Of a DNA stretch of 64,000 bases, positions 10,378 to 39,403 are shown piece after piece. Source of the DNA: Novibacillus thermophilus (lineage in GTDB: Bacteria > Bacillota > Bacilli > Thermoactinomycetales > Novibacillaceae). Below the pieces are notes generated by a model that had not been told where the DNA came from, did no database searches, and worked only from the letters and a program-made list of their open reading frames with translations. Numbering within the stretch: position 1 is the first letter of the stretch; the number at the start of each line of letters is the position of its first letter. Where the stretch lies: assembly GCF_002005165.1 (NCBI RefSeq), contig NZ_CP019699.1:1550001-1614000 (forward strand), given 5' to 3'. The position numbers were made by a program, and so were the translations under genes.

Positions 10378-11781
10378 GTTAAGTCCTTATAATTGTGTAA
10401 AATAATTGTGTAAAATGGATTCCTTAAAAATAAAGGAGCCAATTTCAAAATCCTCGGTTAGAATGGAGTTGTCGGAAATACCATTCTGGAGAGGAGAATT
10501 TTGAAATGGCTCAATACCAGATTACCGTAGATCAAGAACTTTTGCAGCAACTTTTTTTAGGACATTCAAAAGACGCTGGTGTAGCGAAATTACTGGAATC
10601 GGTATTAAACCAAATTCTCCAAGCGCAGGTGACCGAACAGCTGGCAGCTGAACGCTATGAACGCACGGATTCCCGTCAAGGCTATCGCAATGGATCCTAT
10701 CCTCATCAATTAACCACTCGGGTGGGGACCATTACGTTACGTGTTCCACGGATTCGAAACGGTCAGTTCTCCACTGAACTGTTTGCCCGTTACCAACGGA
10801 GCGAGCAAGCTTTGGTGTTGGCTTTGATGGAAATGGTCGTGAATGGGGTTTCCACACGTAAAGTGACTCAGATTACCGAAGAGCTTTGCGGCACTCATTT
10901 TTCCAAGTCCACCGTTTCAGACCTGTGCAAAAGGCTTGATCCTATTGTGGAGGCTTGGAATTATCGTCCGCTTTCAGACCGCCGGTTCCCGTTTGTGCTG
11001 GTGGATGCCTTGTACCTCAAAGTCCGTGAGGATGGCCGGGTACGGTCCAGAGGAGTGATGATAGGAATCGGTGTCAACACAGACGGTTACCGGGAAGTCT
11101 TGGGGATCATGACCGGTGACACGGAATCGGAAGCCAGCTGGAGCGAATTTTTCAGTTGGTTAAAACAACGTGGTCTTGGTGGTGTCGATTTGATCACCTC
11201 TGATGACCATGGCGGTTTAGTCCGTGCCATTCGTCACCATTTCCAAGGGGTCACCTGGCAACGCTGTCAAACCCATTTGATGCGTAATATTCTGGATGCC
11301 ACACCAAAAGCGCTGAGAGACGAAGTTCATCGCCATGTCCGTGGCATCCTGGATGCAGCGGATATCGAAACAGCCAGAATGCTTTTGAACGAAACGCTGA
11401 AAGTCTTTGAAGAGAAAGCGCCTAAAGCCATGCGTATTTTGGAAAACGGGTTTGATGATGCCACCGCCGTTTTGGCTTTCCCTGAGAAGTACCGTAAGCG
11501 ACTGCGTACCACCAACAGCGTCGAGCGGTTGAACGAAGAAATCCGCAGACGGGAACGTGTGATTCGCATTTTTCCCAACCGCCAATCGGTGATTCGTCTG
11601 TTGGGGGCCTTACTCATGGAACAGGATGAGAAGTGGGCCAGTGGTCGGAAATACCTCGATATGGAAGATTACTTCACCTGGCGCAAAAGCCATTCAGCAA
11701 AAACACATAGTAAGGTGACACGCATCATGTAGGCAGCTTATCTAACCGAGGAGCTTTTTACACACAATTTTGGACTTGATC
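10378..11781 (+). mobile_element. IS256-family insertion sequence, copy 1
   Basis: The ends were fixed by comparison with the inverted second copy (38013-39403). The left end reads GTTAAGTCCTTATAATTGTG, and the right end, read inward, GATCAAGTCCAAAATTGTGT. These share AAGTCC and AAAATTGTGT, the imperfect terminal repeats. This copy is 1404 bases, 13 longer than copy 2, because AATTGTGTAAAAT is duplicated in its left end. I see no 8-9 bp target duplication at either flank, so the flanks may have been rearranged after insertion. Confidence 0.88.
10506..11732 (+). CDS. IS256-family (mutator-type) transposase
   Basis: A 408-aa DDE transposase of the IS256/MULE class. Family features include the early Q-rich helix and the RNGSYPHQL region, catalytic Asp contexts in VLVDALYLKVRED and LITSDDHGG, the CQTHLMRN motif, and the C-terminal Glu in NSVERLNEEIRRRERVIRIFPN. 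The length is normal and the frame intact, so it should be active. ATG 10506 has GAGAGGAG upstream. The protein is identical to that encoded at 38062-39288 in the opposite orientation. Confidence 0.95.
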   Translation: MAQYQITVDQELLQQLFLGHSKDAGVAKLLESVLNQILQAQVTEQLAAERYERTDSRQGYRNGSYPHQLTTRVGTITLRVPRIRNGQFSTELFARYQRSEQALVLALMEMVVNGVSTRKVTQITEELCGTHFSKSTVSDLCKRLDPIVEAWNYRPLSDRRFPFVLVDALYLKVREDGRVRSRGVMIGIGVNTDGYREVLGIMTGDTESEASWSEFFSWLKQRGLGGVDLITSDDHGGLVRAIRHHFQGVTWQRCQTHLMRNILDATPKALRDEVHRHVRGILDAADIETARMLLNETLKVFEEKAPKAMRILENGFDDATAVLAFPEKYRKRLRTTNSVERLNEEIRRRERVIRIFPNRQSVIRLLGALLMEQDEKWASGRKYLDMEDYFTWRKSHSAKTHSKVTRIM

Positions 11782-18838: not shown

Positions 18839-18871
18839 CAGTCCATATAGTTGTACAAGAGGGGTGAGGGT

Positions 18872-19423
18872 ATGCGTGGGAAAAATGTTTGGGTCGGGAT
18901 CGTGATTATTTTGCTTATCGTTGGTGCAGTCTTCATGAATCAATCAAGGGAGGGTCAGCAACAGACAGCGAAAGTGGTTGAACCTGACCGCGATGTGAAA
19001 CCACAAGAAGGATTTGCTGCCCCTGATTTCACGTTACAATCTTTATCAGGTGAGACGGTTCAGCTATATGAAAACAATGGGAAGCCTTCTTTAATCAACT
19101 TTTGGGCTTCTTGGTGCCCACCTTGTAAAGTGGAAATGCCCGATTTACAAGAGGCATATGATACGTATGGGGATCAGGTTAATTTTCTGATGGTCGATTT
19201 GACGTTTAATGATGATCTGGATGAGATGACACAGTATATTGAAAGTAACAGCTTCACCTTTCCAGTTTTGCTAGACGAGACAGGGGATACGGCAAGCCAA
19301 TACCAAGTTGTCGCAATTCCTTCAACATATATCGTAGATAAAAATGGCATTATTGTATCGAAAGTTCAGGGAGCGATGTCTCGTGAACAAATTCAAGACA
19401 CGATGAAGCGACTCACAAAGTAA
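18872..19423 (+). CDS. TlpA/ResA-type membrane-anchored thiol-disulfide oxidoreductase
   Basis: About 183 aa from ATG 18872, with a single N-terminal membrane anchor (about residues 5-24) and an extracytoplasmic thioredoxin fold: APDFTLQSLSG, active site WASWCPPCKVEMP, and the cis-Pro loop VAIPSTYIVDKNG. ResA-like proteins keep the haem-binding Cys of apocytochrome c reduced, using electrons from CcdA. That partner is encoded 21 bases downstream, supporting this role. GAGGGGTGAGGG precedes the ATG; a TTG at 18851 is in frame but has no ribosome site. Regulated by the direct-repeat site upstream. A second such protein (29907) is more CcmG-like. Confidence 0.88.
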   Translation: MRGKNVWVGIVIILLIVGAVFMNQSREGQQQTAKVVEPDRDVKPQEGFAAPDFTLQSLSGETVQLYENNGKPSLINFWASWCPPCKVEMPDLQEAYDTYGDQVNFLMVDLTFNDDLDEMTQYIESNSFTFPVLLDETGDTASQYQVVAIPSTYIVDKNGIIVSKVQGAMSREQIQDTMKRLTK

Positions 19424-19444
19424 GCATAAGGGGTGGAAGTTTTC

Positions 19445-20161
19445 ATGGGAGCAGATCTGACATTATGGTTAGCGTTCGGTGCGGGGTTTTTGTCGTTCAT
19501 TTCCCCTTGTTGTCTTCCGTTGTACCCGTCATACATTTCATATATTACGGGCATTTCAGTCAATCAATTAAAGGGTAACAAGCAGTCGTTTGCCATGCGT
19601 AAACTGACGATGATCCACACGTTGTTTTTTATTTTGGGTTTTTCCATCATTTTTTTCGCACTTGGATTGTCGGCATCCTGGATCGGGCAGTTCTTTACCG
19701 GCAACCAAGATATTATCCGCATGCTCGGTGGGATTTTAATTATCGCTATGGGGCTTTTTGTGATGGGTGTTTTTAAACCTGCTTTCTTAATGCGTGAAAA
19801 GAAAGTGTCTATTAATAAAAAGCCGACCGGGTATTTAGGTTCTACACTCGTGGGCATTGGTTATGCGGCGGGGTGGACACCGTGTGTGGGGCCGATACTG
19901 ACATCGGTTTTGCTGCTCTCTGCTACTAACCCCACACAAGGAATTGCCTATATTACGGCTTACACTCTCGGTTTCGCCATTCCATTTTTTATCATGGCGT
20001 TTTTCCTCGGGCGTACCAAATGGATCTTAAAGTATTCCTCAAAATTGATGAAAATTGGTGGCGCCCTGATGATTGTGACGGGAATCCTGTTATACACAGA
20101 TCAAATGACACGGATCACCACCTCGTTAATTCGTCTCTACGGAGGGTTTACTGGGTTTTAA
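19445..20161 (+). CDS. ccdA: Cytochrome c biogenesis membrane protein CcdA
   Basis: A 238-aa polytopic membrane protein of the DsbD transmembrane family that carries electrons from thioredoxin across the membrane. The two redox Cys appear in FISPCCLPLYPS (first helix) and GWTPCVGPIL (fourth helix), each next to Pro as is typical. About six helices are seen and the size matches Bacillus CcdA. It follows tlpA in an operon and should reduce the TlpA and CcmG proteins. ATG 19445 is preferred to GTG 19433, which overlaps the AAGGGG ribosome site. Confidence 0.92.
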   Translation: MGADLTLWLAFGAGFLSFISPCCLPLYPSYISYITGISVNQLKGNKQSFAMRKLTMIHTLFFILGFSIIFFALGLSASWIGQFFTGNQDIIRMLGGILIIAMGLFVMGVFKPAFLMREKKVSINKKPTGYLGSTLVGIGYAAGWTPCVGPILTSVLLLSATNPTQGIAYITAYTLGFAIPFFIMAFFLGRTKWILKYSSKLMKIGGALMIVTGILLYTDQMTRITTSLIRLYGGFTGF

Positions 20162-21654: not shown

Positions 21655-21686
21655 ACCAAGGAACAGCCGAATGGAGCTGAGTATTA

Positions 21687-22295
21687 GTGGGCAAGTGGTT
21701 CCCCAGATGGTATGATGCATTGATGGAACCTTTGGAACGGCGGGGTATTCGGAACATTCGCATTAGATTGCTTCAAAAGGCATGGGGAAATGTGCTGGAA
21801 ATCGGTTCGGGAACAGGATTGAACTTCCCTTATTACGAACAAGTAGAGCAAGTGACTGCTATCGACCCAGAACCACTCATGGTGAAACAATCGATGCAAC
21901 GTGCGGAACAGGCCCACGTTCCGATTAGAGTTAGGAGGGCCGAGGCAGAAGCGCTCCCCTTCGCTGACAACCTCTTTGACACCGCCGTGGGAACGTTGGT
22001 ACTATGTACGGTTCCAGATCCGAACAAGGCATTGGCGGAAATTCGTCGTGTCTGTAAACCAGGTGCCCCGGTTCTTTTCTTCGAGCATGTTCGCTTGGAA
22101 CACCCATTGCTTGGGCGGTTGCAGGACGGGTTAACTCCCGTGTGGAAACGCCTTTGTGACGGCTGTCACTTAAACCGCAACACATTAGAGCAAATCCAAC
22201 GAGCAGGATTCAAAACGACCGTTGTCGAACCGCATTATAAAGGAATCTTTCTCGTTATAGAAGCGGTCAATGAAAAAGATATCGGAAAACAGTGA
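21687..22295 (+). CDS. Class I SAM-dependent methyltransferase
   Basis: A 202-aa protein of the UbiE/COQ5-like fold: motif I VLEIGSGTGLNFPYY, acidic end of strand 2 in TAIDPEP, RRAEAEALPFADNLFD and the motif GTLVLCTVPDP. The sequence LEIRRVCKPGAPVLFFEHV is typical of small methyltransferases acting on lipids or small molecules. The substrate is unknown. GTG 21687 follows GGAGCTGAG. It is last in a unit with two small copper-type proteins and is followed by a strong terminator. Confidence 0.85.
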   Translation: MGKWFPRWYDALMEPLERRGIRNIRIRLLQKAWGNVLEIGSGTGLNFPYYEQVEQVTAIDPEPLMVKQSMQRAEQAHVPIRVRRAEAEALPFADNLFDTAVGTLVLCTVPDPNKALAEIRRVCKPGAPVLFFEHVRLEHPLLGRLQDGLTPVWKRLCDGCHLNRNTLEQIQRAGFKTTVVEPHYKGIFLVIEAVNEKDIGKQ

Positions 22296-22315
22296 TTAGA
22301 CTATAAAAACCGGGC

Positions 22316-22354
22316 AGATCAAGAACGGGCGTTTTCGGTTCTTGATCTTTTTTT
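22316..22354 (+). terminator. Strong terminator after the methyltransferase
   Basis: AGATCAAGAAC (22316-22326) and GTTCTTGATCT (22338-22348) form a perfect 11-pair stem with an 11-nt loop, followed by TTTTTT. Confidence 0.92.
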
Positions 22355-22387
22355 ATGGATTCAACTGGTTCCCTATTTTGTCAACGC

Positions 22388-22422
22388 TTCCCCATAAATT
22401 CTTCACAAGTTCGTGTTATAAA
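22388..22422 (+). promoter_or_regulatory. 11-bp direct repeat site ahead of the DsbD-like gene
   Basis: TTCCCCATAAA (22388-22398), TTCTTCACAAG (22399-22409) and TTCGTGTTATA (22410-22420) are in 11-bp phase. The -10 may be TATAAA (22417-22422). Less regular than the 18.8-kb site. Confidence 0.5.
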
Positions 22423-22432
22423 AGTGGAATAG

Positions 22433-22513
22433 ATGAAAAAATACAGCCTGTTGTTTGTAGTCGATCAAAACAAGATGCGGCGAATAACGAAAACTAATGG
22501 GGGGCTCAAGTAA
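22433..22513 (+). CDS. Possible 26-aa leader peptide
   Basis: ATG 22433 opens a 26-codon frame (MKKYSLLFVVDQNK start, basic middle) whose TAA at 22511-22513 touches the ATG of the next gene at 22514. The ribosome site (AAAGTGG) is weak. The stop-start contact would couple translation of the DsbD-like gene to this short frame. It may also be coincidence. Confidence 0.3.
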   Translation: MKKYSLLFVVDQNKMRRITKTNGGLK

Positions 22514-23254
22514 ATGTATGACTGGATCAGTCGCATGAGTGCTATTATAAGCGAGCCGTTTTTCAATCTGTTTTTTGGGGTGGAATGGCCGGTATTGGGT
22601 GCATTATTGCTCGGTATTGTCGGCTCACTCGCCCCTTGTCAACTAACTAGCAATGCAGCGGCACTAGCATATACGACGAAACGTTTTCAGTACAAAAAGA
22701 GTGTTATGGTTGAACTTATGGCATTCATTAGCGGCAAGATGATCGTTTACTTCGGTATTGGGCTCATTGCCATGATCCTTGGTGCCCAGCTACAACAGCA
22801 ACTTATCCCCATCTTTGTCTGGGCCCGCAAGCTGATTGGGCCTATTCTTTTACTAACTGGCTTAGTTCTGGTCGGCTGGCTGCGCTTTCGAACGCTAAAC
22901 GCATCATTATCTTCGCGTATCCAGAACTGGGCGGAACGTTACGGGGGAGGGAAAGCAGCCTTCGGGATGGGAGCGGGATTTTCCCTCGTGTTCTGCCCAA
23001 CCATGGCGACACTTTTCTTTGCCTGGCTTTTGCCAATGGTGATCAGTACTTCCTTCGGATGGGTGTTGCCCCTGATATTTGCGATCGGGACCTCCGTGCC
23101 GCTAGTGGTGTTGGTTCTTATAGCCGGTGTTACTGGAATGGACCGGCCGTTACTTCGTCAATCACGAAAGGTGGGAAGATGGGTGACGGTAGGGATTGGC
23201 GCTGTCCTAATCGTCATCGGTGTTTTTGACACAATAACGTATTGGACATTTTAG
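22514..23254 (+). CDS. DsbD/CcdA-like transmembrane redox protein
   Basis: A 246-aa membrane protein with six predicted helices. The first helix ends in GSLAPCQLTSNAAALAY and the fourth contains LVFCPTMATLFF: two Cys in the places used by CcdA and DsbD for passing electrons across the membrane. It differs from the true CcdA encoded at 19445 and probably serves another exported thiol partner or metal. It heads the region just before the cytochrome c maturation operon. A close paralogue with the same APCQ and FCPTM motifs lies at 49457-50211 (frameshifted). GGGGGG precedes the ATG. Confidence 0.75.
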   Translation: MYDWISRMSAIISEPFFNLFFGVEWPVLGALLLGIVGSLAPCQLTSNAAALAYTTKRFQYKKSVMVELMAFISGKMIVYFGIGLIAMILGAQLQQQLIPIFVWARKLIGPILLLTGLVLVGWLRFRTLNASLSSRIQNWAERYGGGKAAFGMGAGFSLVFCPTMATLFFAWLLPMVISTSFGWVLPLIFAIGTSVPLVVLVLIAGVTGMDRPLLRQSRKVGRWVTVGIGAVLIVIGVFDTITYWTF

Positions 23255-23300
23255 TACGAAGAAGCAACTGAAATCTGTTTCCTTCAAACATCAGCCACAG

Positions 23301-23336
23301 TTTCATCATAAAAACTTCACACTTGTTTGTTAGTGT
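23301..23336 (+). promoter_or_regulatory. 11-bp direct repeat site ahead of the ccm operon
   Basis: TTTCATCATAA (23301-23311), AAACTTCACAC (23312-23322) and TTGTTTGTTAG (23323-23333) are in 11-bp phase. TAGTGT (23331-23336) is a possible -10. The start of the first operon gene is about 95 bases on. Confidence 0.5.
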
Positions 23337-23431
23337 TGAAAATGGAAGGCCGCATGGGAGAGGAAAGTCGTTATTACACACCCCACAAATATATTGTTTA
23401 ATATGGAAAAAATGAGGAAGGCGGTGCGGTG

Positions 23432-23848
23432 ATGAGTGTAAAAACAAAGTTGACAATTGTGGTCAGCCTGATCGTTGTCGTAATCGCAACACTTGTCGTC
23501 ACAAATCTGGGGGAGGCTGCGACATTTTACATGACCGTTGATGAGTTTGATGAAAAAAGCGTTTCAGCTTCGGCGAAGCCTGTCCAGATAAGTGGAGAAA
23601 TTGTCGGCGATTCAATTGAATGGGATCCAGAGAATACGCTACTTACGTTTGACCTTCGAGGTGCGCAACAAACGGACAAAACAGTTTCGATTCGTTATGA
23701 AGGTGTGAAGCCTGACATGTTAAACGATGGTTGGGAAGCCATTGTCGAAGGCAATTTAAATGATGACGGCGTCTTTGTTGCAACCGAATTGCTCGTCAAG
23801 TGCCCTTCGAAATATGAAGCAATGGAAGAGGAGGAAGGCGGAACGTGA
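23432..23848 (+). CDS. ccmE: Cytochrome c maturation haem chaperone CcmE (Cys variant)
   Basis: A 138-aa protein with one N-terminal membrane anchor and an outside OB-fold. CcmE binds haem covalently and hands it to the CcmF ligase. The classical haem-binding motif is HxxxY. Here the matching place, near the C-terminus after VATELLVK, reads CPSKYE, that is CxxxY, a variant known from some bacteria and archaea. The core (KPVQISGEIV, LLTFDLRG, VRYEG-like VSIRYEGVKPDML) agrees with the family. ATG 23432 or GTG 23429 may start it. Its TGA overlaps the ccmF ATG. Confidence 0.88.
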   Translation: MSVKTKLTIVVSLIVVVIATLVVTNLGEAATFYMTVDEFDEKSVSASAKPVQISGEIVGDSIEWDPENTLLTFDLRGAQQTDKTVSIRYEGVKPDMLNDGWEAIVEGNLNDDGVFVATELLVKCPSKYEAMEEEEGGT

Positions 23849-25839
23849 TGGGTGAAATAGGGCGCTGGGCACTTATTTTTGCCTTGATTATCGTTGTCTA
23901 TGCGGGGGTGGCGCATCTCATAGCTATCAAAAGTGGAAATAAGCGTCTGTTACATAGTGCTAAAAATGCCGTGCTCGTCGTAACAGGTTTAACGACAATA
24001 GCGTCAAGTGCCCTCATTTATTTACTAGTGACCGATGACTTTAGATACCAGTACGTCGCACAATATACGAGCACGGATACATCACTACTCTACAAAGTAG
24101 CAGCGTTCTGGGGAGGCAATGCCGGCTCGCTTCTTTTTTGGCTCTGGATTTTAACCATATATACAGCGCTTGTCACTTGGTCAAAACATAAAGACAGTCA
24201 CCAGTATTTACCGTGGGTCTCCACTGTCATGCTCACAATCAGTTTGTTTTTTGTGTTTTTGGTTAACTTCGTTGCGCAGCCTTTTGCTTTGGCAAACGAA
24301 GTCGTGACAGAGGGAAGCGGATTAAATCCGTTGCTGCAAAATCCAGGAATGGCCGTACACCCTGTCATGCTTTATCTCGGCTATATCGGTTTTACGATTC
24401 CGTTTGCTTACGGGATTGCCGCGTTAATTTTGAAAAAGGCGGACGCGACTTGGCTGAAGGTCACGCGGCGCTGGACACTTGTGACGTGGCTTTTTTTAAG
24501 TATGGGGATCATTTACGGGGCACAGTGGGCGTACGTTGAACTGGGCTGGGGTGGCTACTGGACTTGGGATCCGGTCGAGAACGCCTCTTTCTTACCGTGG
24601 TTGACAGGAACGGCCTTTTTACATTCCGCAATGATTCAAGAGAAAAAAGGCAAGTTAAAAGGCTGGAACATTTCATTAATTGTGTTGACGTTCATGCTGG
24701 TGATATTCGGAACCTTTCTAACACGTAGCGGATTACTGTGGTCGGTACATGCGTTTGCCAACGGCCCGATCGGTGCTTATTTCCTTGGTTTAATCGGGGT
24801 TGTTCTCATTGTTTCGCTTAGTTTGATTTGGTCGCGGTGGTCACTTTTGAAGGCTGATCAAGTGCAATATGAGGCTGTTGTCTCAAAGGAAAACAGCTTT
24901 TTAATTAACAATCTGTTGCTTGTCGGGATCATGTTTACTACATTTTTTGGCACCATTTATCCCATCATTTCTGAGACATTGACAGGAACGAAGGTCATGG
25001 TTGGCGCCCCGTATTTTAATCGGGTGAACGTCCCCATCTTTATCGCCTTAATCTTGCTCATGGGGATTTGCCCGCTGATTGCATGGAAGAAATCAAGTTT
25101 ACGGACGGTGCGCAAAAACTTATTTCTCCCTTTAATCGTAGCGCTCCTGACTGCATTCGTACTGTTTGCAATGGGCGTAAGCGAATGGAGAGTCTTCCTG
25201 TCGTTGACCGTTGCTGCTTTCGTTTTGGCAACCATTTTTCTCGAATTTGCTTTGGCTGTTCAGGCAAGAGTAAAATCGACAGGGGAGAATCCGTTTCTTT
25301 CATTGTATATGCTTTTTGTAAAAAACCGCAGAAGATACGGCGGCTATATTGTTCACTTCGCCATTATTATGATTGTCATCGGCTTGACAGGTGCGGGTTT
25401 CTACTCTCTCGATCTGCAGAGCAGTATTGCCCCGGGCGAGACAATGCGGGCGGGGAACTACACGTTACAATACCGCAACATCGATGAAGTAACAACACCG
25501 GCAAGGAATACGGTTTATGCGGAGTTCCTCGTGAGTAAAGGCGATAAGCTCCTAGGTGCCGTCCGTCCGAAAAAAGTTTTCTACACAAATGGAAATCAGC
25601 CGTCAACGGACGTATCGGTTGTGAGTTCATTTACGGATGATTTATACGTTGTTTTAAACGGTTGGATTGAAGACTCGGAAAAAGCGGTCATACAGGTTAA
25701 AGTCTTTCCGCTCATTTCCTGGGCATGGTTTGGTGGTTATGTGCTCATTTTCGGCTCATTAATCTCGCTTTGGCCAGGCAAGAAAAAGCGGCGTTCATTC
25801 CGAACGCCAAAAGCAATGGAGTCGGTTCTCGATGGTTAA
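23848..25839 (+). CDS. ccmF: Cytochrome c haem lyase subunit CcmF
   Basis: A 663-aa polytopic membrane protein with about 14-15 segments, the haem ligase of System I. The tryptophan-rich haem-handling signature is present: WGGYWTWDPVENASFLPWL near residue 230. Further family motifs are NPLLQNPGMAVHPVMLYLGY and SGLLWSVHAFA. A C-terminal outside loop (GPG-like region, FYSLDLQSSIAPGE) precedes the last helix. The ATG overlaps the ccmE stop (TGATG), and the C-terminus overlaps the next gene by eight bases, so translation is coupled. Confidence 0.94.
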   Translation: MGEIGRWALIFALIIVVYAGVAHLIAIKSGNKRLLHSAKNAVLVVTGLTTIASSALIYLLVTDDFRYQYVAQYTSTDTSLLYKVAAFWGGNAGSLLFWLWILTIYTALVTWSKHKDSHQYLPWVSTVMLTISLFFVFLVNFVAQPFALANEVVTEGSGLNPLLQNPGMAVHPVMLYLGYIGFTIPFAYGIAALILKKADATWLKVTRRWTLVTWLFLSMGIIYGAQWAYVELGWGGYWTWDPVENASFLPWLTGTAFLHSAMIQEKKGKLKGWNISLIVLTFMLVIFGTFLTRSGLLWSVHAFANGPIGAYFLGLIGVVLIVSLSLIWSRWSLLKADQVQYEAVVSKENSFLINNLLLVGIMFTTFFGTIYPIISETLTGTKVMVGAPYFNRVNVPIFIALILLMGICPLIAWKKSSLRTVRKNLFLPLIVALLTAFVLFAMGVSEWRVFLSLTVAAFVLATIFLEFALAVQARVKSTGENPFLSLYMLFVKNRRRYGGYIVHFAIIMIVIGLTGAGFYSLDLQSSIAPGETMRAGNYTLQYRNIDEVTTPARNTVYAEFLVSKGDKLLGAVRPKKVFYTNGNQPSTDVSVVSSFTDDLYVVLNGWIEDSEKAVIQVKVFPLISWAWFGGYVLIFGSLISLWPGKKKRRSFRTPKAMESVLDG

Positions 25840-26338
25840 AGTGAAGCACCTGATGGCTTTGGTCATTTTGGCTTTTTTGATGATGGGTGGGCACGATGCA
25901 TGGGCAGCAGGGAATGCCCCATCACAAAAAGTGCCTGTTTCAAGGGCAGACGTGCTGGACGTCGCCAAGGAGATTCACCCACCCGGCTGTACGCACTCGA
26001 TGACAGCCGACTACTGTACACTGACCACCGCCTATGAGACGAGAGCCGAAATTGCCGAGTTGCTCGGTCAGGGCATGAATAAACAGGAAGTACTGGATAC
26101 GCTAATTGCCAAATACGGGGAACGGATACTAGCATCGCCACCGGCGAGGGGTTTTAACCTACTCCCCTGGGTTTTACCCGGGGTTAGTATAGTGATCGGT
26201 GCGGCTGCCGTTACTTTTTTCGTTCGCAGCTGGGCGAATGGAGAGGAGGACAGCGGCAACAGTTCGGAAAGGAATAACTACACGGTTTCTCCGGCGGATG
26301 AGCGAGATGTACAGGAAGAGCTTAAACATTGGATTTAA
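25832..26338 (+). CDS. CcmH-like apocytochrome thiol-handling protein (non-canonical Cys motif)
   Basis: A 168-aa exported protein: signal segment at residues 1-25, an outside three-helix region and a C-terminal membrane helix (LLPWVLPGVSIVIGAAAVTFFV). The region AEIAELLGQGMNKQEVLDTLIAKYGERILASPP agrees with the CcmH/CycL helix bundle. The usual LRCxxC motif is replaced by PPGCTHSMTADYC, two Cys eight residues apart. This may be a different way of handling the CxxCH of apocytochrome. Part of the ccm operon, overlapping ccmF. Assignment rests on the helix region and position. Confidence 0.75.
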   Translation: MVKVKHLMALVILAFLMMGGHDAWAAGNAPSQKVPVSRADVLDVAKEIHPPGCTHSMTADYCTLTTAYETRAEIAELLGQGMNKQEVLDTLIAKYGERILASPPARGFNLLPWVLPGVSIVIGAAAVTFFVRSWANGEEDSGNSSERNNYTVSPADERDVQEELKHWI

Positions 26339-26377
26339 GGATTGAACCAGAGTGTTGCCAAGAAAGGAGAATGGACC

Positions 26378-26722
26378 ATGTCGACATCAATGCTTATTAT
26401 CGTAGGGATGGCTATCTGTGTATTGGCAGTTATTTTATATCCACTCTTTATAGACACCGGGCGACAAAAGGGCGATTTCATCGAAAAGTCTGATTGGGAA
26501 CAGCGGAAAGAAGAGGTCTTCTTACAGTTGTCAGATTTAGAATATGATTACCAGATGGGAAAGCTGTCCCAACACGACTATGAAACTACAAAAGCGGAAT
26601 TAACCGCGGTTGCGGTACGCTATACGCGCGAAGAAGAAACAGATCTGGATAACGTCTCCCAATCGGTCGATCAGGAGATTGAGCACTACTTATCTGCGAG
26701 GGGAGTGCAGAATGAACATTAG
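26378..26722 (+). CDS. CcmI-like small membrane protein
   Basis: A 114-aa protein with one N-terminal membrane helix (MLIIVGMAICVLAVILYPLF) followed by a cytoplasmic helical region. Its core, EEVFLQLSDLEYDYQMGKLS, then HDYETTKAELTAVA, resembles the N-terminal domain of CcmI, in which a helix pair follows the motif DLExDxxxGKL. There is no TPR domain. ATG 26378 follows AAAGGAGA; a longer frame from 26342 is unsupported. It overlaps the next gene by 11 bases. The same motif recurs at the end of the next protein. Confidence 0.65.
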   Translation: MSTSMLIIVGMAICVLAVILYPLFIDTGRQKGDFIEKSDWEQRKEEVFLQLSDLEYDYQMGKLSQHDYETTKAELTAVAVRYTREEETDLDNVSQSVDQEIEHYLSARGVQNEH

Positions 26723-27677
26723 AAGATGGTCAACTGTCGTCTTCCTGTTTGCCTTATTTTTTTCGTTTTCACCGTACGCTTATGCGGACGGAACGTACCC
26801 CGTAAGGATAACGAGCCAAAAAATGATCGTGTACCCGAGTGACGTGAACACAGTCAATATCGTGCAAAGTATGGATTTTAAGAACACCGGTACGGAAAAG
26901 GAAACAGAATTGCCGATCTACTTACCCGAAGGGTATAGCAACTTGGAATTAAGGGGCGGCTTAGCGGAAGCGGACATGGAGAAGACGGAGAATGGAATTG
27001 TTGATACGTCCGGATTGGATGCGGGCGAGGGTAAGCTGATTATCGTTTCTTACCAAATGCCGATGGAGCAAAACGTTTCCCAATGGACAATCACACAATC
27101 TTATGTGACAGAAGATGTGCAAGTGATGATACAGCCCGGGATTTTATCGTTTCAGGCGACTGATCTTGTCACGCAATCGCAGCTGATTGAAATAGACGGA
27201 CAAGAGTATCGCAGATTCACCCGTCTGGATCTGCATCCGGATGTTCCGTGGACGCTTTCCTTTCGTTTAATCGACACCGTGGAAGGTAATGAATCGGAGA
27301 CGACCCCATCTAAGCCGTCCGCAGGGAGTGCTGTTATTGATCCGAGTGGGGAAAAGTTCACCGAGGACGGCATCCCGATTATTGGGGCCGAGCATGAACG
27401 TGTCTTTTTTAAAACGGCTTTTACTTTTGGAACGATTGCTGTCGCTTTATCCGCTGCGTTGATCGGTTTACGGCGGGACCGGCAGTCCACAATCGTCGAT
27501 GTGAAGAAAAGGAGCAGACCTTGGCTGCATACACAAAAAGAACAGCTGCTTAAGCAAATGTTCGATTTGGAAAAGGACTACCACAACGAATTAATCAGTG
27601 AACAAACATATGAGTCGGTAAGGGCCAAAATTCGCAGCCAAATAATCAAAATTACCGCAGAACTGCAGCAAAGGTAA
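26712..27677 (+). CDS. Exported membrane-anchored protein of the ccm operon, unknown family
   Basis: A 321-aa protein: signal peptide (VVFLFALFFSFSPYAYA), an outside beta-rich domain of about 200 residues (VNTVNIVQSMDFKNTG, ELPIYLPEGY), a low-complexity linker, one membrane helix near residue 240 (FFKTAFTFGTIAVALSAALIG), and a cytoplasmic tail. The tail holds QMFDLEKDYHNELISEQTYE, clearly related to the helix-pair motif of the preceding protein. I do not recognise the outside domain. Position between the CcmI-like gene and ccmA, with an overlapping stop-start on both sides, argues for a role in haem or apocytochrome delivery. ATG 26712 follows GAGGGGAG. Confidence 0.6.
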   Translation: MNIRRWSTVVFLFALFFSFSPYAYADGTYPVRITSQKMIVYPSDVNTVNIVQSMDFKNTGTEKETELPIYLPEGYSNLELRGGLAEADMEKTENGIVDTSGLDAGEGKLIIVSYQMPMEQNVSQWTITQSYVTEDVQVMIQPGILSFQATDLVTQSQLIEIDGQEYRRFTRLDLHPDVPWTLSFRLIDTVEGNESETTPSKPSAGSAVIDPSGEKFTEDGIPIIGAEHERVFFKTAFTFGTIAVALSAALIGLRRDRQSTIVDVKKRSRPWLHTQKEQLLKQMFDLEKDYHNELISEQTYESVRAKIRSQIIKITAELQQR

Positions 27678-28372
27678 TGACCATGATCGAGCTACAAAAC
27701 CTTGCGGTCATTTTAAATGACAAAGTTATTCTACGTGCGCTCAATTTTTCTTGGCACAAGGGAGAGACAGTCGCCCTTGTCGGGGCAAACGGTGCTGGGA
27801 AAACAACATTGTTGAAAGTACTCAGCACGTTAATCAAACCGACATCCGGCAAGTTGAAGTTGGCAGACGGTGTCACGTCGCAACAGTGGAGACGTCTGTT
27901 CGGTGCGGTATTTCAAGAATCGTTTTTGTACGATGAGCTTTCTGCACAGGAAAATTTGCTTTTTTATCAACAATTGTATGGTGACGCTGACCGAAGAAAA
28001 ACGGAGTACCTGTTGCAACTGGTAAACCTGCTTAATGTGAAAGATGAGAGAACAACGGCGTTCTCCAAGGGCATGAAGCAGCGACTGTCGATTGCACGAG
28101 CTTTAATTCACGAACCGATGTGTCTGCTGCTGGACGAGCCGTTTGAGGGACTTGATCTCGCATCAAAAAAAACGATTGAAGCCGTATTGCATGAAAGGAA
28201 AAGAGCCGGAGCAGGCTGGATTCTCGTCAGTCACGATATAGATGATGCGTGGCGATTATGTGATCGGGTTGTGTTTCTCCATGATGGAACGGTTCTGCTC
28301 GAGCAGCCATGTCATGAACAACAATTTGCGTCCTTTCTTACGTATTACAAAAAGGTACTGGAACGAGGATGA
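27677..28372 (+). CDS. ccmA: ABC transporter ATPase CcmA
   Basis: A 231-aa ATPase that with CcmB powers release of haem-loaded CcmE from CcmC. Walker A is GANGAGKTT, the Q loop is in VFQESFLYD, the signature is FSKGMKQRLSIARAL (a relaxed LSGGQ as in other CcmA proteins), Walker B is CLLLDEPFEGLD, and the switch His is in LVSHDID. ATG 27677 overlaps the previous stop (TAATG); ATG 27683 has slightly better distance to AAAGGT. It overlaps ccmB by four bases. Confidence 0.88.
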   Translation: MTMIELQNLAVILNDKVILRALNFSWHKGETVALVGANGAGKTTLLKVLSTLIKPTSGKLKLADGVTSQQWRRLFGAVFQESFLYDELSAQENLLFYQQLYGDADRRKTEYLLQLVNLLNVKDERTTAFSKGMKQRLSIARALIHEPMCLLLDEPFEGLDLASKKTIEAVLHERKRAGAGWILVSHDIDDAWRLCDRVVFLHDGTVLLEQPCHEQQFASFLTYYKKVLERG

Positions 28373-29051
28373 CGATGCAATTTCTTAGACAGGCAGCCTT
28401 AGTTCTGCAACGGGATATCACGATTGAACTGCGGCAAAAATCACTGCTCGTTTCGATGATTGTTTTCTCAATTCTCATCCAAGTTGTATTGTTCATTTCT
28501 TTTGATGTGCAAAAAGAGGCGATGCAAACGTTGGCAGCAGGGATACTATGGCTGCCGATTATACTCTCGGCAATGATCAGTTTTAGCAAATATGCAAAAG
28601 CGGAAAAAGAAAATGGGGCGATGCACGGCATGCTCGTTTCCCCGATCAACCGCGGTGCGATGTTCCTCGGCAAGCTAATGGGAAATTTAATTTTCGTATC
28701 GATGGTGGGCGTTGTTTCCGTCCCGGCCTTTTTCCTGTTCCTGAAGCAGCCCCCCCTTCTTCCACAGCACTTTTACTGCTCACCCTTTTTTTGGGTAGCT
28801 GGGGCTTTACGGCTATCGGCGTTTTTCTCGCCAACTTGGCTGAAGCAAGCAGTTTGAAAGAATTGCTCGTTCCGATTATGTTGTTTCCAATGTCAGTACC
28901 GCTCTTAATTGCGATTATACGTTTAACAGAAATGGCACTTTATCCGACAGTTGAACTCGGGATGTCTCTGTGGATCGTCCTTTTAATCGCGTATAATGTC
29001 CTTTTTACGGTTGTTCCTTTGTTGTTATTCGATGTGTTACTGGAGGTATAA
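28369..29051 (+). pseudogene. ccmB: CcmB membrane subunit, frameshifted in a C run
   Basis: The frame from ATG 28369 encodes four membrane segments (SLLVSMIVFSILIQVVLFISF, LAAGILWLPIILSAMISF and others), then breaks in CAG followed by seven C (28748-28756 region). The rest, SSTALLLLTLFLGSWGFTAIG and on to LLLFDVLLEV, is in another frame ending TAA 29051. Adding one C restores a CcmB-like protein of about 227 aa. If the shift is real the CcmAB exporter is broken. A homopolymer assembly error is at least as likely, given the good state of the surrounding operon. Confidence 0.82.
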
Positions 29052-29053
29052 GC

Positions 29054-29752
29054 ATGGCGAGGAAATTAATTGTACCCTTTAAGTGGGGACTGTTCGCAGT
29101 GACCACTGTTGCCGTTCTGATTCAGTTGTACATGGTCTTCTTATATGCGCCAACTGAAAAATTTATGGGGGATGTGCAGCGACTCATGTATTTTCACATC
29201 CCAAGTGCATTTTCGGCCTTTGCAGCATTTGCTCTCGTTTTTGTGATGGGGATTGTTTATTTGGTTACGAAAAAGAGGACATGGGATTTGATCGCCGTTT
29301 CTTCAGCTGAAATCGGTGTTCTATTTACAACACTGACACTAATAACAGGATCCATATGGGCGCGCCCTGTGTGGAACGCTTGGTGGGTATGGGATGACCC
29401 AAGACTTGTCACGACACTTATTCTTTGGTTTATGTACATCGCCTATTTGTTGATTCGTTCGTCCATCGCAGAGGACACACGCCGGCGCAAGTTTGCATCT
29501 GTTTTTGGTATCATTGCGTTTATTGATGTTCCGATTGTCTACTTTTCGGTGCTGTGGTGGCGGACGATCCATCCGAAAGTCATTGATGAGACCGGGATCC
29601 ATATGCCGCCCGAGATGACGCAAACGTTGTTCGTCGGCATAATTGCTTTTCTTTTATTGTATGCCATGCTTTTACTTTATCGGACGACCTTTGAGTATCA
29701 ACGCGAAGCATTTATCAGTATAAAACAGGAAAAATTAAGGGAAGGAAGATGA
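29054..29752 (+). CDS. ccmC: Haem-handling membrane protein CcmC
   Basis: A 232-aa protein with six membrane helices. CcmC attaches haem to CcmE. The tryptophan-rich signature is present as PVWNAWWVWDDPRL, flanked by family motifs MYFHIPSAFSAFAAF and VYFSVLWWRTIHPK; His residues before and after the signature are the expected haem ligands. It follows ccmB by two bases. Its stop overlaps the following small gene. Confidence 0.93.
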   Translation: MARKLIVPFKWGLFAVTTVAVLIQLYMVFLYAPTEKFMGDVQRLMYFHIPSAFSAFAAFALVFVMGIVYLVTKKRTWDLIAVSSAEIGVLFTTLTLITGSIWARPVWNAWWVWDDPRLVTTLILWFMYIAYLLIRSSIAEDTRRRKFASVFGIIAFIDVPIVYFSVLWWRTIHPKVIDETGIHMPPEMTQTLFVGIIAFLLLYAMLLLYRTTFEYQREAFISIKQEKLREGR

Positions 29753-29758
29753 TGTCGG

Positions 29759-29881
29759 GTGGGTTATTTGTTCGCAGGAACAGCGATTGTCTGGATTGGT
29801 ATATTGGCGTACGTTATTTCGATATCGGTTAGACAGCGGAAAGTATTTCGCCTAATGCAAAAGTTGAAAAGAAATAGCTAG
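29759..29881 (+). CDS. ccmD: CcmD-like small membrane protein
   Basis: A 40-codon frame from GTG 29759 to TAG 29879-29881. It has one membrane helix (GTAIVWIGILAYVISISV) followed by a basic tail (RQRKVFRLMQKLKRN). Size, topology and position directly after ccmC match CcmD, the small protein that keeps CcmC and CcmE together. GGAAGGA lies about 12 bases before the GTG. An overlapping ATG frame at 29749 gives no membrane segment. It is short enough to be missed by routine gene finding. Confidence 0.65.
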   Translation: MGYLFAGTAIVWIGILAYVISISVRQRKVFRLMQKLKRNS

Positions 29882-29906
29882 TATTTAATTAAGAGGAGGA
29901 TGGAAT

Positions 29907-30434
29907 GTGAGGGGGAGGGTTATACGAATTGTTGTGTTAATCCTTCTTGCCGCTGGGTTTGGCTATGCTGCTATTACGCTTGGTATTAATTCGACAGCAG
30001 CGGAGATAGGGGATCCGGCTCCCGATTTCACGCTTGAAGATATGGACGGAAACAAGGTGACCCTGGCCGAGTATAAAGGGCAATTTGTCATTTTGAACTT
30101 TTTTGCCTCATGGTGTCCACCTTGCCGGAAAGAGGCACCAGAATTACAGAAATTCCAAGAGCAATACGGGGATCAGGCAAAGCTGTTGATCCTTAGTCGT
30201 GCTGAGCCGAAAGCAACAGTTCAGGAGTTTATTAATGAATTTGGATCAACATCGACCTATCTACTCGATTACAATGATTCGATGGCAAGGCCTTATGGTG
30301 TCGTCGGTCAACCGGAAACCTTTTTTATTGATGAAGAGGGGATCATTCGCTATCACCATATCGGGGAGATGGACATGGCGTTTATGGTCCAGACTACCAA
30401 TCAGTTTATAGAAACACCGTTGAAAGGACGATGA
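29907..30434 (+). CDS. CcmG/DsbE-type thioredoxin-like protein
   Basis: A 175-aa membrane-anchored thiol reductase: N-terminal helix (VLILLAAGFGYAAITLGI), APDFTLEDMDG, active site FFASWCPPCRKEAPEL, and the cis-Pro loop VVGQPETFFIDEEG, closer to CcmG (GxPETF) than to ResA. It would reduce apocytochrome CxxCH thiols before haem attachment. GTG 29907 follows GAGGAGG. It closes the ccm gene set, 26 bases after the CcmD-like gene. Confidence 0.85.
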   Translation: MRGRVIRIVVLILLAAGFGYAAITLGINSTAAEIGDPAPDFTLEDMDGNKVTLAEYKGQFVILNFFASWCPPCRKEAPELQKFQEQYGDQAKLLILSRAEPKATVQEFINEFGSTSTYLLDYNDSMARPYGVVGQPETFFIDEEGIIRYHHIGEMDMAFMVQTTNQFIETPLKGR

Positions 30435-30564
30435 AGGTGAACGGGTCTTAGGATATGAGATGACTGTTCCGACGCCTAGCCGGGTTTAGGAGATGTTAAT
30501 GTAAAACAGGCATATACTCGTGATGATGAATGCAAAATAAGAACAGGAATAGGAGTGATATCCA

Positions 30565-30786
30565 ATGATGATGATGGGTGGTATGGGAATTCTTAATATG
30601 ATCTTTTGGATCCTCATCCTGGGTTTGTTAATCTACGGTGTCTATTTGCTAATTGAAAAAGCAACAGGTAAATCAGGAAAGGAGTCTTCGGATTCTCCCG
30701 CTAACATTTTGAAGGGAAGACTGGCACGGGGCGACATCAGTGAAGAGGAGTACGAGAGATTGAAATCTGTTTTAAACAAAGATTAA
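30565..30786 (+). CDS. SHOCT-domain small membrane protein
   Basis: A 73-aa protein: a Met/Gly-rich start (MMMMGGMG), one membrane helix (ILNMIFWILILGLLIYGVYLLI), and a C-terminal SHOCT motif, ILKGRLARGDISEEEYERLK. SHOCT motifs occur at the end of many membrane proteins with unknown role. GGAGTG precedes the ATG. It resembles the helix-pair motif of the two unknown ccm-operon proteins. Confidence 0.75.
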   Translation: MMMMGGMGILNMIFWILILGLLIYGVYLLIEKATGKSGKESSDSPANILKGRLARGDISEEEYERLKSVLNKD

Positions 30787-30794
30787 TTTCCCAA

Positions 30795-30827
30795 CCTCAT
30801 CACAGTTTCATACGTTTTTTGGTTATC
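30795..30827 (+). promoter_or_regulatory. 11-bp direct repeat site ahead of the propeller gene
   Basis: CCTCATCACAG (30795-30805), TTTCATACGTT (30806-30816) and TTTTGGTTATC (30817-30827) keep the 11-bp phase. Another isolated TTTCACA is at 30905-30911. The gene starts about 130 bases on, so the assignment is weaker than for the other sites. Confidence 0.4.
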
Positions 30828-30956
30828 GTTTTACGGCAAAGAAATTTATAAATGGCATTTTTGATATAAAACCTATTGGATGGTCAGAGAAGGATTTTTT
30901 GAAGTTTCACAATTGGATAATTTAACAGTTATGACCGTGAGGTAAAATCGTAAGAA

Positions 30957-31901
30957 ATGACATTCAAAGGGAGTCGAAAAATATTGCAAGGCAAAAGTAA
31001 AATCATTCTTGCTGTTATTGTGGTAGGGCTTGTCGTCATTGGCGCAGTGCTTTTCTTAAATCGGACAAGCGAACCAGAGATTGTTATGGAGCATGTGCAC
31101 GGATTGGGGTACACAGCGGACGGAAAACTTGTTACGCCAGCGCATGATGGCTTGCGAGTGTACGCGGACGGGGAGTGGTCCATCCCCGAAGGCGAAAAAC
31201 ATGACTACATGGGCTTTTCCATGGTGGATGAAGGGTTTTATAGCAGTGGACATCCAGCACCAGGCTCTGATCGGATCAATCCGTTCGGCGTCGTTAAAAG
31301 CACTGACCTTGGTCAAACACTGGAGACGTTGGACTTGGAGGGGGAAGCCGATTTTCACGGTATGAGTGTTGGTTATAAAACGCACACGATTTACGTGATA
31401 AATCCGGAACCGAACTCGCAGATGGATGCTGTAGGAATGTATTATACGCAAGATGAGACGAAAACTTGGAAGAAAAGTGACATGCAAGGCTTGACGGAGG
31501 AACTGACGACTCTTGCCGCTCATCCGACAGAAGATGCTGTTATCGCCGTTGGAACTAATACCGGTGTGTTTTTATCCGAAGACTACGGTCATACCTTTAA
31601 GAAAATCAATGATACTGTGCAGGTCACTTCCTTGTACTTCAGTCCACAAGGGGAACTGTTTGTTGGGGGAGTCAATCAGGGGCCGAAGTTCTTTCAGCTT
31701 GACCTACAAAGTGGGGAGACGACACCGGTTAATCTTCCACCGTTAAACGATGACGCTGTTATGTATATTGCCCAAAGTACTGAAGGGGAAGAACTAGCCT
31801 TCGTTTCATTCAATTTGCATATGTATGTGACAAATGACCAAGGAGAAAATTGGAAACAAATTGTGAACGACGGAAAAGGAATTTCCGGAGAATCAGGGTA
31901 A
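30957..31901 (+). CDS. Beta-propeller protein of the F510_1955 family, paralogue
   Basis: A 314-aa protein with an N-terminal membrane anchor (IILAVIVVGLVVIGAVLFL) instead of the lipobox of its paralogue at 2264-3172. The two share HVHGLGY/HIHGLGI, HDYMGFSM, GFYSSGHP and INPEPNSQ/INQEPNSE, and the repeated Asp-box-like turns (STDLGQT, YTQDETKTWK, SEDYGHTF, TNDQGENW). It is thus a membrane-anchored outside propeller of unknown ligand. Presence in both copper modules supports a metal-related role. ATG 30957 is used; TTG 30984 after AAGGGAG is an alternative. Confidence 0.78.
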   Translation: MTFKGSRKILQGKSKIILAVIVVGLVVIGAVLFLNRTSEPEIVMEHVHGLGYTADGKLVTPAHDGLRVYADGEWSIPEGEKHDYMGFSMVDEGFYSSGHPAPGSDRINPFGVVKSTDLGQTLETLDLEGEADFHGMSVGYKTHTIYVINPEPNSQMDAVGMYYTQDETKTWKKSDMQGLTEELTTLAAHPTEDAVIAVGTNTGVFLSEDYGHTFKKINDTVQVTSLYFSPQGELFVGGVNQGPKFFQLDLQSGETTPVNLPPLNDDAVMYIAQSTEGEELAFVSFNLHMYVTNDQGENWKQIVNDGKGISGESG

Positions 31902-38012: not shown

Positions 38013-39403
38013 GATCAAGTCCAAAATTGTGTGTAAAAAGCTCCTCGGTTAGATAAGCTGCCTACATGATGCGTGTCACCTTACTATGTGTTTTTGCTGA
38101 ATGGCTTTTGCGCCAGGTGAAGTAATCTTCCATATCGAGGTATTTCCGACCACTGGCCCACTTCTCATCCTGTTCCATGAGTAAGGCCCCCAACAGACGA
38201 ATCACCGATTGGCGGTTGGGAAAAATGCGAATCACACGTTCCCGTCTGCGGATTTCTTCGTTCAACCGCTCGACGCTGTTGGTGGTACGCAGTCGCTTAC
38301 GGTACTTCTCAGGGAAAGCCAAAACGGCGGTGGCATCATCAAACCCGTTTTCCAAAATACGCATGGCTTTAGGCGCTTTCTCTTCAAAGACTTTCAGCGT
38401 TTCGTTCAAAAGCATTCTGGCTGTTTCGATATCCGCTGCATCCAGGATGCCACGGACATGGCGATGAACTTCGTCTCTCAGCGCTTTTGGTGTGGCATCC
38501 AGAATATTACGCATCAAATGGGTTTGACAGCGTTGCCAGGTGACCCCTTGGAAATGGTGACGAATGGCACGGACTAAACCGCCATGGTCATCAGAGGTGA
38601 TCAAATCGACACCACCAAGACCACGTTGTTTTAACCAACTGAAAAATTCGCTCCAGCTGGCTTCCGATTCCGTGTCACCGGTCATGATCCCCAAGACTTC
38701 CCGGTAACCGTCTGTGTTGACACCGATTCCTATCATCACTCCTCTGGACCGTACCCGGCCATCCTCACGGACTTTGAGGTACAAGGCATCCACCAGCACA
38801 AACGGGAACCGGCGGTCTGAAAGCGGACGATAATTCCAAGCCTCCACAATAGGATCAAGCCTTTTGCACAGGTCTGAAACGGTGGACTTGGAAAAATGAG
38901 TGCCGCAAAGCTCTTCGGTAATCTGAGTCACTTTACGTGTGGAAACCCCATTCACGACCATTTCCATCAAAGCCAACACCAAAGCTTGCTCGCTCCGTTG
39001 GTAACGGGCAAACAGTTCAGTGGAGAACTGACCGTTTCGAATCCGTGGAACACGTAACGTAATGGTCCCCACCCGAGTGGTTAATTGATGAGGATAGGAT
39101 CCATTGCGATAGCCTTGACGGGAATCCGTGCGTTCATAGCGTTCAGCTGCCAGCTGTTCGGTCACCTGCGCTTGGAGAATTTGGTTTAATACCGATTCCA
39201 GTAATTTCGCTACACCAGCGTCTTTTGAATGTCCTAAAAAAAGTTGCTGCAAAAGTTCTTGATCTACGGTAATCTGGTATTGAGCCATTTCAAAATTCTC
39301 CTCTCCAGAATGGTATTTCCGACAACTCCATTCTAACCGAGGATTTTGAAATTGGCTCCTTTATTTTTAAGGAATCCATTTTACACAATTTTAAGGACTT
39401 AAC
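38013..39403 (-). mobile_element. IS256-family insertion sequence, copy 2 (inverted)
   Basis: The 1391-base copy runs opposite to the copy at 10378-11781. On the plus strand it begins GATCAAGTCC and ends GGACTTAAC. It lacks the 13-base duplication of copy 1. No target duplication was seen. It has split a membrane-anchored gene on its left side. Confidence 0.9.
38062..39288 (-). CDS. IS256-family (mutator-type) transposase
   Basis: A 408-aa DDE transposase, identical in every residue to the one at 10506-11732 and with the same GAGAGGAG ribosome site. Intact and presumably active. The pair in inverted orientation could move the 26 kb between them as a compound transposon or invert it by recombination. 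Confidence 0.95.
   Translation of the reverse strand: MAQYQITVDQELLQQLFLGHSKDAGVAKLLESVLNQILQAQVTEQLAAERYERTDSRQGYRNGSYPHQLTTRVGTITLRVPRIRNGQFSTELFARYQRSEQALVLALMEMVVNGVSTRKVTQITEELCGTHFSKSTVSDLCKRLDPIVEAWNYRPLSDRRFPFVLVDALYLKVREDGRVRSRGVMIGIGVNTDGYREVLGIMTGDTESEASWSEFFSWLKQRGLGGVDLITSDDHGGLVRAIRHHFQGVTWQRCQTHLMRNILDATPKALRDEVHRHVRGILDAADIETARMLLNETLKVFEEKAPKAMRILENGFDDATAVLAFPEKYRKRLRTTNSVERLNEEIRRRERVIRIFPNRQSVIRLLGALLMEQDEKWASGRKYLDMEDYFTWRKSHSAKTHSKVTRIM

Follow-up and report, generated by a model that had tools for sequence, protein, structure and literature searches.

Why should a genome that already encodes one machinery for attaching haem to c-type cytochromes carry a second one? The question is raised by a 64,000-nucleotide stretch of Novibacillus thermophilus DNA (the window, whose positions are used below), which lies within a single contig of 3,629,225 bases. 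A ten-gene operon for cytochrome c maturation (ccm), ccmE-F-H-I-X-A-B-C-D-G, runs head to tail on the plus strand at 23429-30434, with gene ends overlapping or close (Table 1). This bears out the ten-gene series, CcmD-like gene included, described in a first-pass annotation of this DNA, which set the start too early, at 23301. That annotation also proposed a search for the System II genes resBC in the same genome, and ResB and ResC are indeed present; the sole ResB match lies at 2803113, far from the operon, and ResC was named from its position and translation. We propose, at a probability of roughly one half, that a System I* operon of a Bacilli lineage, now travelling with copper- and mercury-resistance genes, has landed in a genome already having System II, where it would act as a spare system for copper stress.

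The operon is of the System I* variant, defined by CxxxY in CcmE, and is whole but for ccmB. CcmA, CcmC, CcmE and CcmF were recognised by family models, and ccmB, which is frameshifted in this sequence, by comparison. The window CcmE reads CPSKY, with Cys where Escherichia coli has the haem-binding His. Cys occupies this site in 59 of 59 aligned Bacillota loci (those returned by our search, window copy included, not all CcmE-positive genomes), with Phe replacing Tyr in one, L064. System I* has been described for Desulfovibrio and archaea, with a CPSKY-type CcmE noted in Firmicutes in passages of PMC3601427, and is also described in part of PMC9084895. The type is therefore not new in Bacilli.

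We counted the two systems by CcmE, NrfA and ResB profile searches in 398 genomes of the class (ResB at E 1e-10 or better). ResB was found in 265 of them, so that System II is the usual system of the class, in accordance with the earlier statement made for Bacillales. CcmE was found in 33, as well as in 84 of 398 genomes of the phylum and 1 of 42 of the own order. The first-pass view of System I as exceptional in Bacilli does not survive this count, nor the published cases in Firmicutes and Bacillus azotoformans (in the relevant passages of PMC3601427 and PMC3475470). Only five of the 33 CcmE-positive Bacilli also have ResB, namely this genome (G000) and G054, G132, G275 and G299. NrfA occurs in nine of the 398, all CcmE-positive and including the last four, and this genome has no match to NrfA (PF02335). 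The two systems thus mostly exclude each other in this Bacilli sample, and the exceptions besides this genome have NrfA. The other five NrfA genomes (G049, G051, G058, G072, G078) have CcmE and no ResB match, G051 being 84% complete. In B. azotoformans, the ccmEFHABC System I genes stand beside nrfAH, as a passage of PMC3475470 reports; a recent review, in the part available, places NrfHA under System II (PMC12285233).

CcmF divides the Bacilli copies into two branches. Our scan of genome contigs gave at least 80 CcmF loci, a biased sample with many from metagenome bins. In a tree of 133 rows, the window copy falls within a group of 22 Bacilli (Shimodaira-Hasegawa-like approximate likelihood-ratio support 88), itself inside a 23-row set (99). 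The nine NrfA genomes include none of these 22. The eight NrfA-positive genomes with a CcmF in the tree (G058 is not in it) fall in another group, which also contains the second operon of G063, a genome without an NrfA match. G063 carries two System I* operons (L066, L067), one per branch, and has neither an NrfA nor a ResB match. In a second, midpoint-rooted tree of 49 rows that adds plasmid copies, the window and two plasmids form a clade (100/99), with L066 of G063 next nearest by path; this tree does not place L066 and the window clade together with the remaining Bacilli of that first group, and the deeper order of the branches is thus unsure. CBB3-type cytochromes c are present in all 12 genomes tested from the window's branch that have CcmE but no ResB match (G109 is 79% complete), so that in these genomes the branch appears to serve ordinary cytochromes as a general system.

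The two plasmid copies place the operon in a metal-resistance setting. A plasmid DNA search matched 81 records; among the best 15 of the 81, Cytobacillus firmus M7 p1 and Metabacillus sp. B2-18 pB218 each account for 31-38% of the query and the rest for 1-2%. The gene of no Pfam family that we call unkX (ccmX above) matches just these two plasmids among 72,556 records (E 1e-5). Identity between window and plasmid proteins is 72-74% for CcmG, 64-66% for CcmF, 63% for CcmC, 60-61% for CcmE, 52% for CcmA, 51-52% for unkX, 45-54% for CcmH and 42-43% for the CcmI-like protein. Copper genes surround all three copies, and MerA lies next to two. Annotated near both plasmid operons are CopC, CopZ, an F510_1955 glycosylhydrolase, a SHOCT protein and a two-component system; the Metabacillus operon also has MerR, MerF, MerA and a heavy-metal ATPase nearby, and the C. 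firmus operon a four-helix copper-binding protein and an aa3 quinol oxidase. This oxidase (qoxABCD, L178:10388-14187) lies a few kb upstream of the ccm operon, so that respiratory genes besides ccm are also found on a metal-resistance plasmid.

Sequence comparison gave a similar picture. Window and both plasmids have in common CopZ, a DsbD_2/TauE protein (39-40% identity), the F510_1955 protein (52-53%), a response regulator-kinase pair (window 47046-49207) and a copper ATPase, which on C. firmus matches in two pieces where no gene is listed. MerR, MerA (84%), a DUF1541 protein (72%) and a SpoIIP-like protein are common to window and Metabacillus only, and a CsoR-like protein and the upstream methyltransferase (55%) to window and C. 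firmus only; at the threshold used, the SHOCT protein has a 42% match on C. firmus only. We also compared 18 copper, mercury and CtaG queries with 20 other ccm loci, taken from 19 genomes at 15-20 kb per locus, and obtained one weak CsoR-like match (35%, L077), the remaining 17 queries having none; with stretches of 46 kb, the comparison favours the plasmids somewhat. The copper link raised by the first-pass annotation thus gains real support from the two plasmids, as linkage only. Among the matches listed in a literature search of titles and abstract openings, there was no report of a ccm operon on copper plasmids. As far as our searches show, it is new that an entire ccm operon is linked with metal-resistance DNA, both in this genome and on plasmids of Bacillaceae.

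In the window, two inverted insertion elements (1378 bases, 100% identical) enclose about 29 kb, with the operon and some of the metal-resistance genes inside, and resemble a composite transposon. Two nearly identical 443-residue transposases (L171:16182-17513 and L172:5728-7059), on the same strand and about 73 kb apart, flank the window. A single repeat matching CRISPR-DR2 (38.9 bits) lies just outside the second insertion element, at 39875-39904.

Is the operon foreign, and could the window even be chimeric? That the operon is foreign to its order is supported by the CcmE count there; by a genome of the same family (G018) that lacks CcmE and has none of its eight DNA matches to 16800-36700 within the ccm genes; and by a G+C fraction of 0.458, against 0.497-0.575 at five other loci of the genome. 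The transfer suggested earlier therefore stands as far as the order is concerned, but a source outside Bacilli does not, the window CcmF being nearest to Bacilli copies. The low G+C would also fit the concern that the assembly had incorporated DNA from another phylum. We regard such a chimera as very improbable, since the genome is one 3.63 Mb contig, which makes a joining of contigs from two organisms unlikely, and since the CcmF kinship and the similar gene neighbourhood on two Bacillaceae plasmids both point to Bacilli.

We then asked what the operon might act on. The window held no recognisable cytochrome c gene, as the first-pass annotation had also found, and none was seen in 40 kb of flanks or in the 96 kb searched on each plasmid. 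The window's one CxxCH protein is a methyltransferase, and a methyltransferase with CxxCH is also encoded on the C. firmus plasmid. That plasmid further encodes a 61-residue hypothetical protein with two CxxCH motifs and no Pfam match (L178:4830-5015), a putative small metal-binding protein. Of the families searched among the genome's own cytochromes, CBB3 and NrfA, the former gave four proteins with one CxxCH each; by eye, two are small and lipoprotein-like, one is fused to a bc-type subunit and one is CtaC. Beside one cytochrome c gene of this genome, a haem-copper oxidase-like frame (L003:1809-3209, minus strand) is apparently interrupted by an in-frame stop. A CxxCH reading at the end of L172 was discarded, being out of frame within a longer gene, and a close in-frame pair picked by eye among the first 100 of 340 places in the genome matching a CxxCH coding pattern proved to be DnaJ; those 340 matches were not above the 380 in the control.

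These data bear on the proposal that the operon is dedicated to maturing a multihaem or otherwise unusual cytochrome, like the operons of the NrfA-linked branch. It would account for the fact that nine of nine NrfA-positive genomes (of 398) are CcmE-positive and that all four other dual-system genomes have NrfA. For the present genome it is improbable, given that NrfA, the sole multihaem family searched, has no match, the window CcmF lies outside the NrfA-linked group, the CBB3-type cytochromes carry one haem motif each, and the CxxCH pattern does not exceed its control. The special cytochrome supposed in the first-pass annotation thus fits the NrfA-linked System I* branch and, so far, not the window's.

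One component of the operon appears to represent a conserved family. Outside Pfam, the C-terminal coil of unkX weakly matches the CcmI model TIGR03142 (17.4 bits, below the cut-off of 29.3). Split profiles resolved the protein into an N-terminal domain (xN) and this coil (xC), which is common to CcmI-like proteins, including the short CcmI-like protein of this operon, whose counterparts in other ccm loci it matches; the short protein has no tetratricopeptide repeat (TPR) match in Pfam (E 0.1). xN is present in ccm operons of Bacillota, Chloroflexota, Acidobacteriota and others. Several loci have a second unkX copy upstream of ccmE (for example L067, L083, L090, L091); L077 encodes xN and CcmF as one fused protein (944 residues), and six loci (L075, L076, L078, L080, L081, L082) carry the coil at the CcmF end. 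In Chloroflexota, two cytochrome c domains precede xN in L095, L102, L105, L106 and L122, and one in L159. These six are predicted membrane-anchored cytochrome c-unkX domain proteins inside ccm operons, so that there the assembly operon itself would encode a cytochrome. An AlphaFold2 model (mean predicted local distance difference test score 79.6) shows a confident beta-sandwich at residues 27-195, a membrane-type helix at 236-259 and a helical hairpin at 269-320. The beta-domain resembles in fold Ost1/ribophorin I (Z 13.1, root-mean-square deviation 3.3 over 165 residues) and M1 aminopeptidase N-domains (Z about 11).

The distribution of unkX follows that of CcmE. A Bacilli profile matched 42 of 338 genomes at E 1e-3; the 27 at 1.2e-10 or better are all CcmE-positive, the CcmE-positive G132, G275 and G299 matched weakly, and 12 CcmE-negative genomes gave short matches at 1.6e-4 or worse. 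The CcmE-positive G360, G368 and G400 are not among the matches, and since two of them carry unkX (L075, L081), these genomes were probably not drawn in the 338-genome sample. Among 78 ccm loci with at least 4 kb 3' of ccmF, which are related to one another (loci with less were dropped), unkX lies downstream of ccmF in 52, a TPR protein in 4, both in none and neither in 22, of which L077 has the fusion and L079, L083 and L084 an upstream copy. Four operons have a TPR-bearing CcmI without xN. A single-sequence scan of genome contigs confirmed no named unkX relative, and the literature search found no paper joining ccmF with 'carboxypeptidase regulatory-like'; that unkX forms a conserved family tied to ccm operons in several phyla is new as far as these searches show. 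CcmI is a member of the CcmFHI complex, to which PMC12285233 also refers. The operon position of unkX, its co-occurrence and its fusions, both to CcmF and to cytochrome c domains, make it most likely that unkX is part of the CcmF lyase complex; there it may hold or present the apocytochrome.

CcmH is also altered. Across the 13 genomes of the window's branch with CcmH aligned, the first Cys of LRCxxC is gone in all 13 and both in 9, and both plasmids have CcmH in the window's form (HPPGC...DYC); the CcmH profile had no match within the stretches of L068, L069, L072, L073 and L077. CcmG retains WCPPC. By analogy with the studied Systems I and I*, CcmABC(D) would move haem out and load it on the Cys of CcmE. 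CcmF, CcmH, the short CcmI and unkX would then take haem from CcmE and attach it to apocytochromes, with unkX holding or presenting these in place of the CcmI TPR domain found elsewhere and CcmG, with CcdA/TlpA, keeping the CxxCH thiols reduced. System I* chemistry is established for relatives, and we infer every biochemical step here from them. On this reading the operon would still work despite the frameshift in ccmB.

What would such a second system be for? It most likely lets cytochrome c assembly continue under copper stress. This role of the island copy is plausible because of the linkage to metal resistance, the loss of the CcmH thiols and a report of copper targeting the assembly of c-type cytochromes; the missing redox cysteines of CcmH accord with a copper benefit without showing it. 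The plasmid hosts, as Bacillaceae, would be expected to have System II. A broader form of the idea is tentative and, taken whole, rather unlikely: that mobile islands for copper and mercury resistance equip hosts of Bacillaceae type with a spare System I* which sustains cytochrome c assembly and respiration when copper disables System II, with a lyase that works without the CcmH LRCxxC chemistry and with an unkX subunit, common to several phyla, replacing the CcmI TPR. The first-pass annotation had also considered haem export or copper-linked redox chemistry. In studied systems CcmABC forms a complex that moves haem, and the neighbours here are copper genes, but an exporter would not need CcmE, CcmF, CcmH, the CcmI-like protein and unkX, all of which are kept, and we consider such a role, apart from any maturation of cytochromes, highly unlikely.

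Several points weigh against a spare system for copper stress. No cytochrome c gene was seen near the operon, so its substrate is assumed. Metal-resistance plasmids collect genes, so the linkage may be hitch-hiking; moreover, three linked copies are few, and the two plasmids are close kin (CcmF 88% identical). CcmG, CcdA and TlpA retain thiols, so the system is not thiol-free. As for copper, c-type cytochrome assembly is reported as a copper target, by its title, in a study of another bacterium, Rubrivivax, cited in PMC7558416. The swap of a TPR for unkX, as judged from sequence, rests on few cases. Finally, with ccmB frameshifted, the operon may be dead.

The frameshift, noted in the first pass, is real in this sequence and falls at 28750-28756 in a run of seven C, the sole seven-base C or G run in the window. 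Of the 63 other loci where CcmB was seen, 61 have it as one uninterrupted frame, the exceptions being L103, cut by a contig end, and L163, which is split; CcmB is intact on both plasmids, to which the two window halves are 51-53% and 59-60% identical. A dead operon is the strongest rival to the spare-system reading: it would have arrived with metal-resistance DNA, been superfluous beside ResB-ResC, and already lost ccmB. The insertion elements flanking the island, and overlapping frames at 20199-20911 that look like another broken gene, would accord with such decay. Homopolymer C/G runs are, however, a common site of sequencing and slippage errors, the other nine operon genes show no break, and a metal-gene linkage common to plasmid copies only 42-74% identical in protein is long-lived for a passenger. 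We therefore hold decay to be a real but distinctly less probable outcome than a spare system.

Should the spare-system reading be true, cytochrome c assembly would join the functions protected by metal-resistance islands, and these genomes would offer a natural test of why some bacteria keep two haem-attachment systems. unkX would be a missing System I part outside the well-studied bacteria, present in dozens of operons. How System I* copes without the CcmH LRCxxC and the CcmI TPR becomes testable in a laboratory Bacillus.

Table 1. Features of the operon and its surroundings (window positions)
Feature	Position	Strand	Evidence
ccmE, haem chaperone of Cys type (CPSKY)	23429..23848	+	PF03100 1.6e-23
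ccmF, haem lyase with WWD-type segment	23845..25839	+	CcmF_C PF16327 3.3e-59; Cytochrom_C_asm PF01578 8.4e-41
ccmH without LRCxxC (IHPPGC...DYC)	25832..26338	+	PF03918 1.9e-18; motif alignment
Short CcmI-like, N-terminal hydrophobic helix and coil	26378..26722	+	TIGR03142 24.2 bits, below cut-off 29.3
unkX, signal-like N-terminus, extracytoplasmic beta-sandwich, membrane helix, CcmI-like helical hairpin	26712..27677	+	AlphaFold2 model; conserved in ccm operons
ccmA, ABC ATPase	27677..28372	+	ABC_tran PF00005 1.1e-32; TIGR01189 117.2 bits, below cut-off 131.6
ccmB, frameshifted	28369..29051	+	Two open reading frames, 28369-28857 and 28791-29051; halves match intact plasmid CcmB
ccmC	29054..29752	+	PF01578 1.1e-31; TIGR01191 146.8 bits, below cut-off 186
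ccmD, 40 residues, GTG start	29759..29881	+	By eye; translation like annotated CcmD of Metabacillus plasmid
ccmG / ResA-like thioredoxin with WCPPC	29907..30434	+	AhpC-TSA PF00578 6.3e-31
TlpA-like thioredoxin and CcdA-like membrane protein	18851..20161	+	PF00578 2.4e-29; PF02683 3.5e-12
Methyltransferase and DsbD_2/TauE-like membrane protein, directly 5' of operon	21687..23254	+	PF08241 4.5e-22; PF13386 2.3e-19
SHOCT protein and F510_1955-type protein, directly 3' of operon	30565..31901	+	Same kinds near plasmid operons
Insertion element copy A	10404..11781	+	Identical over 1378 bases to copy B, inverted
Insertion element copy B	38013..39390	-	With copy A brackets operon and part of metal-resistance genes

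Among the neighbouring genes, the TlpA-like and CcdA-like pair is a possible supply of reductant, and a set of CcdA, redoxin and methyltransferase also lies upstream of the operon on the C. firmus plasmid. The frames at 20199-20911 are two overlapping open reading frames in different frames, which resemble one broken membrane-protein gene and have no Pfam match. At 51847-52320 (minus strand) lies a PCYCGC lipoprotein (PF13798, 3.2e-73), whose C-terminal helix region is by eye somewhat CcmH-like.

The operon can finally be set beside the known systems. System II (ResB-ResC-ResA-CcdA) has the same task, at a separate place in this genome, but takes a different haem route without CcmE and CcmAB, and the window operon has no ResB. 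NrfEFG, the dedicated NrfA lyase, does not fit a genome without NrfA. Both the window and the cluster of B. azotoformans represent System I genes in Bacillus or its relatives, but the latter, in the passages of PMC3475470 at hand, goes with NrfA, whereas the window copy belongs to the other branch and to a genome without an NrfA match. That metal-resistance DNA may hold ccm-like genes was hinted at earlier by the plasmid-like heavy-metal-resistance region of Sulfobacillus thermotolerans Kr1, where two hypothetical proteins reportedly share 28% identity with a cytochrome c-type biogenesis protein and 26% with CcmF, respectively (PMC6803676); the likeness is by description and the similarity distant, with no operon in the passages concerned, and the single Sulfobacillus CcmF in our tree (L153) is far from the window copy. 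The beta-domain of unkX resembles Ost1 and the M1 N-domains in fold, at about 11% identity and without a catalytic domain, and fold alone shows no function. With the CcmI family, unkX and the short CcmI share a coil motif that weakly matches the CcmI profile, but unkX has a beta-sandwich in place of TPR repeats and no TPR match. Compared with canonical System I of the E. coli type, CcmE has Cys instead of HxxxY, CcmH has IHPPGC instead of LRCxxC, and the CcmI-like protein is short, with no TPR match, instead of TPR-bearing. The operon is closest to System I*, with which it shares CPSKY in CcmE as well as CcmA, CcmC, CcmE and CcmF, ccmB being recognisable and frameshifted, and from which it differs by a CcmH without LRCxxC, a TPR-less CcmI, unkX and its metal-resistance setting.

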